NCBI GenBank assembly: GCA_003725745.1
Contig: RHDP01000001.1
Coordinates: 6,179,501-6,243,500, forward strand
DNA: 64,000 nucleotides
From: Streptomyces sp. I6
Lineage (GTDB): Bacteria; Actinomycetota; Actinomycetes; Streptomycetales; Streptomycetaceae
Direction: 5' to 3'
Shown here: piece by piece, positions 59,979 to 64,000 of the stretch
Layout of the letters: every line of letters begins with the position of its first letter
Position numbering within the stretch: the stretch's first letter is position 1
Program-made: the position numbers and the translations under genes
Notes under the pieces: generated by a model
What the model saw: only the letters and a program-made list of their open reading frames with translations
Told to the model about the DNA's origin: nothing
Database searches by the model: none

Positions 59979-60560
59979 ATGAGAGAAGATCCCGAGGGCG
60001 GGCAGCGCGACCCCGTCGATGTACGGCTGGCGATACGGCTCGCCGGACTGCGGGCCGAGCGCGGCTGGTCGCTGGACGAGCTGGCGCGGCGCAGCGGAGT
60101 GAGCCGGTCGACCCTGTCACGTGCGGAGCGGGGCGAGATCAGCCCCACCACCTCGCTGCTGGGCAAGCTGTGCGCGGTGCACGGCAGGACGATGTCCCAG
60201 TTGCTGGGCGAGGTGGAGGCGGAGCCGGCCGAGTTCGTTCGCGCCGCCGACCAGACGGTCTGGACGGACGAGTCGGCGGGCTTCGTCCGGCGCTCCGTCT
60301 CGCCGCCGCACACCGGTCTGCGCGCGGAGATCGTCGAGTCCCGGCTCGCCCCGGGAGCCGACCTCGCGTACGAAGCGCCCCCGGTTCCCGGCATGGAGCA
60401 GCACATCTGGATGCTCGACGGCACGGTCGAGATCACCGTCGGCGACTCCACGCACGAGCTGCGCGCGGGTGACTGCCTGCGGTTCCGTCTCCGGGGCCCG
60501 ACGCGGTTCCGCTGCGCCGGGCCGGAGGAGGCCCGCTACGCCGTGGTGGTGCTGCCGTGA
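59979..60560 (+). CDS. XRE-family regulator with cupin ligand domain
   Basis: 193 aa. The N-terminal helix-turn-helix is VRLAIRLAGLRAERGWSLDE with LARRSGVSRSTLSRAERGEI (residues 14-56). The C-terminal cupin (MEQHIWMLDGTVEITVGDST; HELRAGDCLRFRLRGPTRFR) carries a His/Glu set that could bind a metal. The type often regulates a neighbouring metabolic or resistance gene; the coupled GNAT gene is the first candidate. ATG at 59979. The stop overlaps the GNAT start (GTGA). Confidence 0.88.
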   Translation: MREDPEGGQRDPVDVRLAIRLAGLRAERGWSLDELARRSGVSRSTLSRAERGEISPTTSLLGKLCAVHGRTMSQLLGEVEAEPAEFVRAADQTVWTDESAGFVRRSVSPPHTGLRAEIVESRLAPGADLAYEAPPVPGMEQHIWMLDGTVEITVGDSTHELRAGDCLRFRLRGPTRFRCAGPEEARYAVVVLP

Positions 60561-61096
60561 CGGGCTTCACCGTCTCCCGGCTGGGCGCCGGGGAACTCGG
60601 GCGTACGGCACCCCGGTTGGCGGAGCTGCTGGTCGACGCGGTCGAGGGCGGTGCCTCCGTGGGCTTCCTCGCGCCCCTCGACCGCACCGCCGCCGAGGAG
60701 TGGTGGAACTCGCACGGCCCCGCGCTCGCCGAGGGCGGTCGCGCCGTGTGGGTGGCGCGTGACGGCGAGCACGTCGTCGGCACCGTCAGCGCGGGCTTCA
60801 CCGGAAACCCCAACGGCCGCCACCGGGCCGAGATCGCCAAGCTGCTGGTCCACCGAGAGGTCAGGGGGCGGGGGCTCGGACGGGCCCTGCTCGGCGCGGC
60901 CGAACGCGGTGCGGCCGGCCGTGGTGCCACCCTCCTCGTCCTGGACACCGAGACGGGCAGCCCCGCCGAGAGGCTCTACCGCTCGGCCGGATGGACGGCG
61001 GCCGGTGTGATTCCCGGCTTCGCGGCGGACCCCGGCGGCACCCTGCGGCCCACCACGCTCTACTACAAGCAGCTCTTCCGGGACCGGCGGGGATGA
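60557..61096 (+). CDS. GNAT-family N-acetyltransferase
   Basis: 179 aa. The acetyl-CoA pyrophosphate loop is LLVHREVRGRGLGRALLGAA (RGRGLG), followed by TLLVLDTETGSPAERLYRSA as in GNATs. The N-terminal SVGFLAPLDRTAAEEWWNSH is typical of small-molecule acetyltransferases. The GTG overlaps the stop of the XRE-cupin gene, so the two are co-expressed. The substrate is unknown; antibiotic or amine acetylation is possible. Confidence 0.87.
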   Translation: MTGFTVSRLGAGELGRTAPRLAELLVDAVEGGASVGFLAPLDRTAAEEWWNSHGPALAEGGRAVWVARDGEHVVGTVSAGFTGNPNGRHRAEIAKLLVHREVRGRGLGRALLGAAERGAAGRGATLLVLDTETGSPAERLYRSAGWTAAGVIPGFAADPGGTLRPTTLYYKQLFRDRRG

Positions 61097-61241
61097 GCCG
61101 GCGCACCGACCACGGGCGGAATCCGGGGGCGGGGGGGTGTCCGCGTGCCCCACCGGGGCGCCACGCGGACCGGCGGTCGTGCTCGCGCGGCCCGGTGTGC
61201 GTGGGTCACGTACGGTGATGGTCCATGCGCGGTGGTCCGCC

Positions 61242-61342
61242 GTGTGTGACGCACGGTCACGCCGCCTGTGGGGTGACGGAAGTGTGTGACGCATGGTCAT
61301 GATGTGTGCGCGGAGGACGCACGCGTGTGACGGACGGTCATG
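61242..61342 (+). repeat. Three direct repeats GTGTGACGSAYGGTCAYG
   Basis: GTGTGACGCACGGTCACG (61244), GTGTGACGCATGGTCATG (61284) and GTGTGACGGACGGTCATG (61325) are spaced 40 and 41 bp apart, i.e. on the same face of the helix (four turns). Variation is at two or three positions. A fourth, weaker block, GGTCACGTACGGTGATGG, lies at 61204. This is an iteron-like array about 260-360 bp upstream of tgmA. Confidence 0.85.
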
Positions 61343-61560
61343 GGGTATGTGCGCGCGATCACAGGTGACGCTTCAACTAGCCCGTCTTCACGGGATGTTC
61401 ACATCGGTCTACACCATTCAGTGCTCTCATGGGGGGAACCCCGCGCATTCCCCCATCCGTCTACCGATGGGGCGATCCCGTGGGGTCCGTCCAGTGTGAT
61501 GACATTCACTGCCACCATGGCCGGAAGTGACGGATAGTAATGAGTGCCCTACATCACCGG

Positions 61561-61576
61561 CACGTACTGTTACGTG
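61561..61576. promoter_or_regulatory. CACGTA-ctgt-TACGTG operator before tgmA
   Basis: A perfect inverted repeat with 6-bp arms and a 4-base centre lies about 30 bp before the tgmA ATG and just upstream of its RBS. Flanking GG and GCC extend the symmetry partly. Position fits repressor binding between promoter and start. Confidence 0.6.
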
Positions 61577-61603
61577 TGCCCAGACAGTCGACGAAGGAGA
61601 CTC

Positions 61604-61795
61604 ATGCGACCGTTCGTACTGAAGTACGTACTTCCGGCCGAGAGTCCTGCGGTCACGCTGCCGTACACCTACGACTCCGCCCTGCAGCTGAACGTGCTGC
61701 CGGACGGGCGGCCGGCCATCGTCGACCGCGATCTGATCCTGGTCACCGGCACGACGACGTCCACCGCCGGGTCCAAGACGCACTTCGACGACTGA
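61604..61795 (+). CDS. tgmA: Graspetide precursor peptide (SAV_5884-type TgmA)
   Basis: 63-aa ribosomal precursor of the ATP-grasp-modified RiPP family. The leader is recognisable: MRPFVLKYVLPAESPAV, then TLPYTYDSALQLNVLPDGRP and AIVDRDLILV. The core is TGTTTSTAGSKTHFDD, which has Thr/Ser donors and a C-terminal pair of Asp acceptors, the layout expected for omega-ester cross-links. The C-terminal GSKTHFDD is a hallmark of this subfamily as I recall it. RBS GAAGGAGA at 8 bases. The maturase starts 15 bases downstream. Confidence 0.9.
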   Translation: MRPFVLKYVLPAESPAVTLPYTYDSALQLNVLPDGRPAIVDRDLILVTGTTTSTAGSKTHFDD

Positions 61796-61810
61796 CGGAC
61801 CGGCGCAGCA

Positions 61811-62748
61811 ATGACCGTACTGATATTGACGTGCCGTCAAGACGTCACCGCAGACATGGTGATCGCCAAGCTGCACGACCGGGGAGTACCCCTCGTGCGG
61901 CTCGACCCCGCCGACCTCCCCGGTGAGGCCGCGCTGTCCGCCGAGTATGTGCGCGGTGACTTCTACGGCCATCTGTCGACCGACGGGCGGCTGCTCAGCA
62001 TGGGAGCGCTGCGGTCGGTCTGGGTGCGAAGACCGGGCGATCCCGCCGCCCACGCCGAGGAGCCTTCGGAGTGGCTGACCGCGGAGACCGAGCAGGCCCT
62101 GTACGGGATGCTCTACTCGGCCACCGCGCGCTGGATGAACCACCCCTGCGTCTCGGCGCAGGCCCGCTGCAAGCCCTGGCAGCTCAGCCTGGCGCACCGC
62201 AGCGGCTTCGCCGTACCCCCCACCGTCATCACCACCTTCCCCCGCGTGGCGCGGCAGTTCGCCGCCCAGTACCAGGACATCGTGGTGAAGTCCGCCTCAG
62301 GGCCGCCGCCCGGCGATCCGCCGGTGTCCCTGCCCACCACCCGAATCCCCCCGACACCGACTTCTCCAGCGTGACCGCCGGGCCCACGATGCTCCAGCAG
62401 TACGTTCCCAAACGCGCCGACATCCGCCTGACCGCCGTGGGCACCAGCCTGTTCGCCGCCCGGAAGCGCTCCGTGGACGGGCAGGTGGACGGACGGTACG
62501 GCGACACCGGCCAGCCCTGGAGGGCCGCCGACGTGCCCGAGCGCATCGCCCGGTCCGTGCGGGACTACATGAGCCTCGCCGGACTCGCCTATGCCGCCTT
62601 CGACTTCGCCGAGGACGCGGAGGGGCTGTGGTGGTTCCTGGAGGGGAACCAGGGCGGCCAGTTCGGCTTCATCGAACTGGAGACCGGTCTGCCCATCGCG
62701 GAGGCCGTCGCGACGTGGCTCGCCCCACCGGCCAGGGAGCAGGGGTGA
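61811..62748 (+). CDS. tgmB: ATP-grasp ribosomal peptide maturase (TgmB-type), one frameshift
   Basis: Ligase that activates Asp/Glu side chains of the precursor and joins them to Thr/Ser hydroxyls. N-terminal TVLILTCRQDVTADMVIAKL and SVWVRRPGDPAAH, central KPWQLSLAHRSGFAVPPTVI and IVVKSASGP (ATP-grasp lysines), C-terminal LLQQYVPKRADIRLTAVG-like block (LQQYVPKRADIRLT) and metal-binding FLEGNQGGQFGFIE. The frame breaks in the C-run 62347-62352: adding one C turns RIPPTPTSPA into RIPPDTDFSSVTAGPT and gives 312 aa, normal for the family. A methyltransferase gene that often follows is absent here. Confidence 0.88.
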
Positions 62749-62796: not shown

Positions 62797-63705
62797 TCAG
62801 CGGGACGCCCCGGCGCCCAGGAACCGGCCGATCCGCCCGCGGAGCCCCGCCGGGTCCAGTCCGTGTGCGGCAAGGTGCTCCTCCATCCGCCCGTACCGCC
62901 GGAGCTCCCGCCGGGCGACGCCCAGCCCCAGCACCCGGTGCGGCACGTCAGCCAGTGCGTCGTTGACGGCGGTGGTCGACGTGCCCGCGAGATACGGCTC
63001 GACGACCACCACGTCGGCCGGGCCGTGCCCGGCCGCCCGCCGGACCGCGGCGGCGTCGAAGGGCCGGACGGTCGTCGCGTACAGCACCGTGACGTCTATG
63101 CCCTCGGTCGCCGCCATGACGTGGTCCAACATCGGTCCGACCGCGACCACCACGCCGCCGCGCCCCTCCCTGGCGGTCAGGAACCGGGTGCCGTCGACCG
63201 GCAGCCCGGACCCGTTCGACTGGAGCGACAGCCGCACATAGACCCGGTCGTCCCCCGAGGCCGCCGCCCGCAGCAGTGCCTCTGCCTCGTCCGGGTGCCC
63301 GGGCACATGGACGGTCCAGCCGTCGAGGGTGTCGAGCAGGGCCACATCGCCGGGTGCCATATGGGTGAAGCCGCCCGCGGGCCAGTCGTACGAGGCGCCC
63401 GCGCTCACCAGTACCCCGCCGACGCCCTGGTGCCCGAAGTCGAGCTTGACCTGCTCGAACGGCCGCTCGACCAGGAAGCTGGCGAAGGTGTGCACGACCG
63501 GCCGCAGCCCCGTCAGGGCCAGTCCACCGCCCACGCCGATCATCAGCTGCTCGCGGATGCCTACGTTGATCACCCGGTCGGGGTGTGCCCGCGCGGCGGG
63601 CCGGAAGCCCTCCGCGCTGATGTCCGCCAGGACGAGGGCGAGCCGGGGGTCCTCGTCCAGCAGCCGGGTCGTGCTCGATATGAAGCGTTCACGCATGGTG
63701 TCCAT
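62797..63705 (-). CDS. Transketolase, C-terminal subunit (split type)
   Basis: 302-aa protein with the pyrimidine-binding and C-terminal transketolase domains. Visible: ADISAEGFRPAARAHPDRVI, NVGIREQLMIGVGGGLALTG (cofactor-activating Glu in REQ), VHTFASFLVERPFEQVKLDF, and VLYATTVRPFDAAAVRR in the C-terminal domain. With the upstream subunit it would form a TPP enzyme. ATG at 63705. A split transketolase is often found in secondary-metabolite loci; a link with the graspetide is unproven. Confidence 0.88.
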   Translation of the reverse strand: MDTMRERFISSTTRLLDEDPRLALVLADISAEGFRPAARAHPDRVINVGIREQLMIGVGGGLALTGLRPVVHTFASFLVERPFEQVKLDFGHQGVGGVLVSAGASYDWPAGGFTHMAPGDVALLDTLDGWTVHVPGHPDEAEALLRAAASGDDRVYVRLSLQSNGSGLPVDGTRFLTAREGRGGVVVAVGPMLDHVMAATEGIDVTVLYATTVRPFDAAAVRRAAGHGPADVVVVEPYLAGTSTTAVNDALADVPHRVLGLGVARRELRRYGRMEEHLAAHGLDPAGLRGRIGRFLGAGASR

Positions 63706-63793
63706 GATGGGTTTCCTCGGTGTGGTGTCCTGTTTCCCGTCGGGTGCCGACGGGGCGGCGGTGCGGGTCCGGGCCCGCCGCCGGGCGTGCCCG

Positions 63794-64000
63794 TCAGGCG
63801 GTCTCCGGCTCGACGCGGGCCACCACGGCGTGCGGGCGGCCGGGATGCGGGGCGGTGAACGCCGAGTGCAGGGCCTGCCGGTCGCGCCCGTCCACGGTCG
63901 CGGTGGACCAGCCGGCCGCCGCGAAGCGCGAGGCGATGCCTCCGGGCCAGCCGTGGGTCGCGGAACCGTTGTCGATCACCACCGTGTGGAGCCGGTCGAG
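63794..64000 (-). CDS. Transketolase, N-terminal (TPP-binding) subunit, cut by window edge
   Basis: The last 68 residues of the TPP-binding subunit lie here: VVIDNGSATHGWPGGIASRF, ATVDGRDRQALHSAFTA, then RPHAVVARVEPETA and a stop at 63794. The 88-bp gap to the C-terminal subunit and the common strand make them one operon. The start and the TPP-binding GDG motif are beyond the right edge. Confidence 0.82.
   Translation of the reverse strand, partial: LDRLHTVVIDNGSATHGWPGGIASRFAAAGWSTATVDGRDRQALHSAFTAPHPGRPHAVVARVEPETA

Follow-up and report, generated by a model that had tools for sequence, protein, structure and literature searches.

The window, a 64,000-nt stretch of the genome of Streptomyces sp. 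I6 (GCA_003725745.1, contig RHDP01000001.1, positions 6,179,501 to 6,243,500), carries near its right-hand end a graspetide precursor gene, tgmA, followed by the gene of an ATP-grasp ligase, tgmB, which as assembled is split between two frames. The features of the locus are these:

61201..61340, no strand assigned: four 18-nt imperfect palindromic repeats at spacings of 41, 40 and 41 bp, a putative operator array recognised by sequence pattern
61593..61599, plus strand: Shine-Dalgarno-like GAAGGAG 5' of tgmA, inferred from sequence
61604..61795, plus strand: tgmA, graspetide precursor (Strep_pep; PF14404 114 bits, TIGR04186 51 bits)
61748..61792, plus strand: predicted core region, the final 15 residues GTTTSTAGSKTHFDD, near-invariant in 93 distinct peptides, in other genera and in phages
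61811..62374, plus strand: tgmB, ATP-grasp ligase, 5' piece in the first frame (TIGR04187 positions 1-187, 215 bits)
62347..62748, plus strand: tgmB, 3' piece in the second frame (TIGR04187 positions 189-311, 138 bits)

In the window sequence tgmA runs from an ATG at 61604 to a stop at 61793-61795 and encodes a 63-aa precursor with the C-terminal end TGTTTSTAGSKTHFDD. tgmB begins 15 bases further on (ATG at 61811), and its stop at 62748 lies 48 bases from a transketolase-like ORF on the opposite strand (62797-63705). This minus-strand ORF has pyrimidine-binding and C-terminal domains, and a second ORF at the window end (within 62797-64000) may be the other half of the transketolase-like gene. 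Upstream of tgmA, profile matches identify a GNAT acetyltransferase gene (60557-61096) and an XRE-cupin regulator gene; 61097-61603 is intergenic, and the range covered by an earlier note on this DNA starts where the GNAT gene ends. No methyltransferase, exporter or protease was found adjoining the pair, and the genome's own PIMT-type enzyme, used as a tblastn query, gave no match across the 19.9 kb around the locus (L007). The earlier note had described the same layout (precursor length, spacing to the ATP-grasp gene, distance and strand of the transketolase, no methyltransferase, exporter or protease alongside), and it is borne out by the coordinates, the profile matches, the empty tblastn search and the nature of the neighbours, which are GNAT, XRE-cupin and transketolase-like.

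The precursor passes the cut-off of 25 bits for each of its two profiles (PF14404, 114 bits; TIGR04186, 51.3 bits). TIGR04187 alignments cover 61811-62371 (215 bits) and 62347-62745 (138 bits), consecutive stretches of the profile; the two pieces were searched separately and neither alone reaches the cut-off of 350 bits. With these matches the initial reading as a graspetide precursor with its ATP-grasp ligase holds, and tgmA-tgmB is a member of the known Strep_pep / GRASP_SAV_5884 graspetide family (PF14404, TIGR04186, TIGR04187). The reading favoured here, at a probability of about 0.8, is that of a two-gene Streptomyces graspetide system, its product probably with two omega-ester rings, with no dedicated methyltransferase, exporter or protease and with a frame break that is an assembly error.

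Taken as given, the window sequence shows tgmB in two frames, as would be expected had it become a genuine pseudogene in the strain, with the precursor left over as a remnant. Several observations make this improbable. The tgmA-tgmB span is 1145 bases in the window versus 1146 in each of its five nearest relatives among the 392 genomes searched, and the one-base deficit falls within a C-rich stretch near 62347, the C-run that had already come under suspicion in the earlier note. Among the testable genes of a near relative, G379, 8 of 36 are frame-split in the window, versus 1 of 34 window genes in G379. Smaller counts show frame splits in 1 of 9 G359 genes when traced in the window and in 0 of 8 when traced in G379; for the genes of L048 and L049 the figures are 3 of 8 (tgmB entering two times) for the window and 1 of 12 for G379. 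One-base differences in runs of at least 3 leave the window shorter in 25 cases and longer in 9; compared with G359 the window is shorter in 5 and longer in 2, and the control comparison of G379 with G359 likewise gives 5 and 2, so that indel direction is weak evidence by itself and more weight falls on the gene count. Frame breaks lie at, for example, about 4773, 26660, 31110, 31357, 38940, 41850, 48270 and 62347, and assembly indel errors look widespread across the window. The source genome (7.05 Mb) has a completeness score of 87%, and the precursor is intact, identical to those of L049, L116 and L117 and 97% identical to that of L048. In 66 of 67 named relatives the ATP-grasp frame is intact at 306-346 aa (160 aa in L087); S. 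wuyuanensis is one example of a species with an intact orthologue. The tgmB break is most probably due to the assembly and not the mark of a dead gene; a truly inactive tgmB, which the earlier note had named as grounds for giving up its reading, is unlikely.

The palindromic array between the GNAT gene and tgmA has the core GTGAC-N5-GTCAY in three of its four copies, and the strict pattern GTGACGNAYGGTCAY occurs three times genome-wide, always at 61201-61340. A phased array whose strict pattern is unique to this place in the genome would fit an exported antibiotic-like or signalling peptide under a dedicated regulator binding the repeats. The array, however, is present in just 7 of 24 loci examined, the window and its closest relatives only, and the repeats were rejected as a family-wide operator for this reason. 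Nor is an exporter or protease family common to most loci. Clustering of 675 neighbouring genes of at least 80 aa, from rough script gene calls at the 67 named loci, turned up no family, apart from the pair itself, shared by more than 12 of them. The pair therefore mostly travels alone, and a conserved neighbour as hidden partner was rejected. The largest neighbour family (12/67) is represented by a single searched member, a glycosyl hydrolase; a family 1.2-1.9 kb upstream at 10 of the 67 loci matches Methyltransf_12 and another, at 7 of 67, matches MFS transporters, again by one searched member each. Counterparts of the window's own neighbours were matched in 69 loci as follows: GNAT in 2, XRE-cupin in 2, transketolase in 4 and acyl-CoA dehydrogenase in 4. 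Since the core is in addition frozen, unlike that of diversifying antibiotics, export under a dedicated regulator is rather unlikely, and the plain two-gene system remains the preferred reading.

The precursor lies directly 5' of the ATP-grasp gene in all 67 named loci. Using the enzyme of the genome's other graspetide locus as a tblastn query, a PIMT-type methyltransferase was found at none of these 67, which cover at least 6 kb upstream in 59 cases and at least 5 kb downstream in 63 (less in the rest) and among which close relatives are over-represented, the named relatives having been gathered by similarity to the window protein. The tblastn search was also empty at 59 further loci, with flanks of mostly 1.5 kb and with 30 loci extending only about 0.5 kb beyond the ATP-grasp gene; the positive control, L005, was detected. 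At 33 more divergent loci, mostly with 4-6 kb flanks and including 13 from five further genera of Streptomycetaceae, no such enzyme was found either. The three sets overlap in genomes. Absence of a methyltransferase neighbour is normal for Strep_pep/SAV_5884 pairs, and the earlier note's frame of a fuscimiditide-type locus minus its methyltransferase is not supported, none of the relatives examined having the enzyme next to the pair.

TIGR04188 matches above the cut-off occur in 107 of 295 Streptomyces genomes, 61 of the 161 with the precursor versus 46 of the 134 without (odds ratio 1.17, p 0.55). Matches at 1e-50 occur in 274 of the 295, 156 of 161 with the precursor versus 118 of 134 without, an association (odds ratio 4.2, p 0.005) that is uncorrected for kinship; five of the 161 precursor-bearing genomes are without any match at 1e-50 (the fifth, G293, by deduction). 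The weaker matches being nearly universal, and commoner with the precursor, their presence alone leaves some room for a methyltransferase acting in trans. Because no PIMT-type neighbour is found at the 67 loci and the above-cut-off matches are distributed independently of the precursor, the window locus is not fuscimiditide-type (group 13).

The earlier note had proposed a genome search for a second locus with the methyltransferase, and one was found at C1:3.516-3.519 Mb (L005:9437-11773). It has its own precursor (TIGR04186, 25.4 bits versus a cut-off of 25), an open ATP-grasp gene (394 bits; 35% identical to the L048 orthologue of TgmB) and a PIMT-type methyltransferase (TIGR04188, 299 bits, below the cut-off of 380; PCMT in Pfam), and looks graspimiditide-type. 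A third, distant TIGR04187-like ATP-grasp gene (102 bits) lies at L006:9399-10250 (G000:C1:6768898-6769749), near a gene that we take to resemble a radical SAM gene.

That the window locus is a decayed graspimiditide cluster, or depends on a distant methyltransferase in trans, is very improbable. PIMT-type methyltransferases do exist elsewhere in the genome, one of them at this second graspetide locus, and the 1e-50 association points the same way; but the enzyme is near none of the relatives' loci in the three sets, its above-cut-off matches are independent of the precursor, five precursor-bearing genomes lack even the weaker match, and the orthologue of TgmB is just 35% identical to the synthetase of the group-13-like locus. 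The predicted core, moreover, has no Asp to spare. In each of the 93 distinct peptides the terminal DD supplies the only Asp of its 15 residues, and if two esters form both are required, so that no loop Asp is left for an aspartimide. A distant methyltransferase as partner was sought in the strain's own genome and in 295 congeners and set aside; above-cut-off matches are unassociated with the precursor, weaker ones associated. Of the alternatives that the earlier note had offered for the product, a plain omega-ester peptide is probably right, and reliance on a distant methyltransferase is unsupported at the cut-off, though not contradicted by the weaker matches.

A PF14404 precursor is present in 161 of the 295 sampled Streptomyces genomes. 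A family sample has it in 32 of 121 genomes and 6 of 17 genera (own genus included), and a phylum sample of 296 genomes in seven, every one a Streptomyces; in the samples examined Strep_pep/SAV_5884 occurs in Streptomycetaceae only. Precursor and ATP-grasp gene also occur together on one plasmid, recorded from S. chartreusis. The last 15 residues take ten forms among 126 precursors (127 loci, 93 distinct peptides), as counted with a text filter (Q[LM]N motif, AG, Asp near the end) that dropped one of the 127 loci, L131, with its frame-broken precursor. This relative (L131 / L157, genome G085) also has a shortened ATP-grasp frame. Residues G49, T51, S53, A55, G56, S57, T59, H60, F61, D62 and D63 are invariant in the 93 distinct peptides. 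Position 58 varies (K, Q or A), which makes it unlikely that Lys58 takes part in a ring. Within the leader P3 is found in 84 and F4 in all of 88 distinct 63-mers. The core has a pN/pS of 0.089, against 0.506 for the leader (110 distinct 63-codon genes, 600 random pairs), and the C-terminal end STAGSKTHFDD is present in 13 of 13 loci of five other genera. The final 15 residues are thus nearly frozen over six genera, own and five others, which argues for a single fixed target. So constant a core speaks for a single conserved target or signal in the cell and not for an antibiotic arms race.

In the proposed mechanism TgmA would be synthesised as a 63-aa precursor whose N-terminal leader, with its PF and QLNV-x-DG-x-x-A motifs, would dock on the ligase TgmB. 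TgmB would spend ATP to turn the side chains of the two C-terminal Asp into acyl phosphates, open to attack by conserved Thr/Ser hydroxyls; the outcome would probably be two omega-ester rings, each formed with a loss of 18 Da. Any cleavage or export would fall to general enzymes. For fuscimiditide, the accessible portions of two papers (PMC12291112, PMC13003496) describe how the ATP-grasp enzyme forms acyl phosphates on Asp for Thr or Ser to attack, and give a short RPFG motif of the leader as the recognition sequence. Two invariant Asp suggest two rings, and since the invariant Thr/Ser exceed these in number, several ring connectivities would be possible. The C-terminal carboxylate might react as well, with a precedent in SsfA (PMC10787088, section 2.1 of the available text). 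Ring number, ester connectivity, activity and target are all predictions here.

Precursors of this family are also found as orphans in phages. In a tblastn search of 50,697 phage records the window precursor gave one match at 1e-3, Streptomyces phage Scarif, whose gp47 scores 73.9 bits with PF14404 and 35.8 bits with TIGR04186. Using the phage peptide as query with a limit of 10, ten records were returned, and ClubPenguin (2e-15) was clear. A weak match in Pseudomonas phage QdP_Psa3 (E 8e-4) lies inside a larger annotated CDS and was rejected as probable chance. Five IMG/VR contigs with a precursor were found by core-end DNA pattern, and the same five by an alignment-based scan; all five precursors are above the PF14404 cut-off. 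The orphan Strep_pep precursors are located as follows:

L193:5995-6186, phage Scarif (PP750868.1)
L200:5001-5195, phage ClubPenguin (MT310852.1)
L202:7935-8123, L203:6283-6474 and L204:7989-8180, three related viral contigs

GenBank annotates the Scarif and ClubPenguin genes (gp47 and gp43) as hypothetical proteins; the hosts of these phages are S. albidoflavus and S. mirabilis. Three of the five IMG/VR contigs have the gene order of Scarif and ClubPenguin around the precursor, with a TerD-domain gene before it, a DUF6353-like gene after it and up to three genes intervening. DNA of the ClubPenguin region is shared by 65 phage records, and the precursor is in only two of them, Scarif and ClubPenguin, so it is an optional gene. 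TIGR04187 has no match in the whole genomes of Scarif and ClubPenguin or in these three contigs, which at 15, 10 and 58 kb are possible fragments; among the phage records the ATP-grasp protein matches two, neither a Streptomyces phage. The other two of the five IMG/VR contigs, L205 (77 kb) and L206 (199 kb), are classed as viral and share an identical 16-kb stretch; they carry a precursor and an ATP-grasp gene together; the ligase scores 319 bits, below the TIGR04187 cut-off, and is 48% identical, and the precursor has diverged.

All five orphans match the window over the last 13 residues (13/13), and four of the five over the last 15. Third positions of the core codons differ at 6-10 of 15 between any two orphans, and pN/pS falls from 0.59 in the leader to 0.02 over the last 15 codons. 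Given this synonymous divergence with the same core, selection on the peptide explains the pattern well and recent copying out of a single host explains it poorly. Orphan precursors with an unchanged core suggest that the target is single and conserved and that the phages make use of the host's enzyme. Tentatively, and at somewhat less than even odds, the Strep_pep graspetide may act on one conserved Streptomyces target that is exploited in infection by phages related to Scarif and ClubPenguin: the orphan precursor would be cross-linked in trans by host TgmB and the product used, e.g. to inhibit a host protease or to act as a regulator, or the precursor would flood the host enzyme as a decoy. 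Scarif is a virulent phage according to the available text of its paper (PMC11536984). Microviridins and plesiocin are serine protease inhibitors, as stated in the accessible part of PMC13097080, and an intracellular protease inhibitor serving host and phage alike is the function guessed at here, with low confidence.

In itself the window locus is an ordinary, common member of a widespread known family. What is new is the near-frozen core over six genera and the phage and viral orphan precursors with the same core. In the literature searched no stated biological role of the Strep_pep family was found, and the core strings are absent from its papers. The term 'RiPP' is absent from the main text of the Scarif paper (PMC11536984) and from the ClubPenguin announcement (PMC9671017), as far as their accessible text extends. 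Among the literature matches listed, from a coverage that leaves out most subscription journals, there is no report of a phage-encoded graspetide precursor. A family with a nearly constant core and no accompanying export or cleavage genes, whose phage carriers would depend on the host for maturation, becomes testable as to its role through that frozen core and through synthetase-less phage records that keep it under strong purifying selection.

Compared with known systems, the locus is most like the Strep_pep/SAV_5884 family itself: both genes match, the two-gene layout is the same and the precursor is well above cut-off, the sole difference being the break of tgmB in this assembly. The solved close homologue of TgmB is 9bou_A, which the L048 orthologue matches along its residues 1-308 with 410 bits, and no paper bearing the code 9bou was found in the literature searched; the precursor gave a single match to solved structures, at chance level. 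The microviridin ligases MvdC/MvdD and PsnB, the latter presumably structure 7drm, belong to the same ligase family as TgmB. Core motifs and partners of the MvdC/MvdD and PsnB systems differ from those of the Strep_pep pair.

Prunipeptin of Streptomyces prunicolor (MIBiG BGC0002725) is likely the best-known relative, although we infer the shared family. It is a bicyclic graspetide by the title of its paper as cited in the references of PMC13097080, which matches the two Asp acceptors of the window core, and the prunipeptin BGC family, with 3,589 members of which 99.53% are Streptomyces in the available text of PMC11888242, has a Streptomyces-centred spread resembling the Strep_pep distribution. 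The graspimiditides (group 13: fuscimiditide, amycolimiditide, albusimiditide, SsfA) share a related ATP-grasp enzyme, Thr-Asp esters in the known ones and a PF-type leader motif. They differ in having a PIMT-type methyltransferase and a loop Asp; the window locus has neither a TIGR04188 enzyme in its cluster nor an extra loop Asp, and ends in DD instead. Fuscimiditide has spaced Asp acceptors (Thr3-Asp22 and Thr7-Asp18, in the accessible portions of PMC12291112 and PMC13003496), whereas those of the window core are adjacent and terminal.
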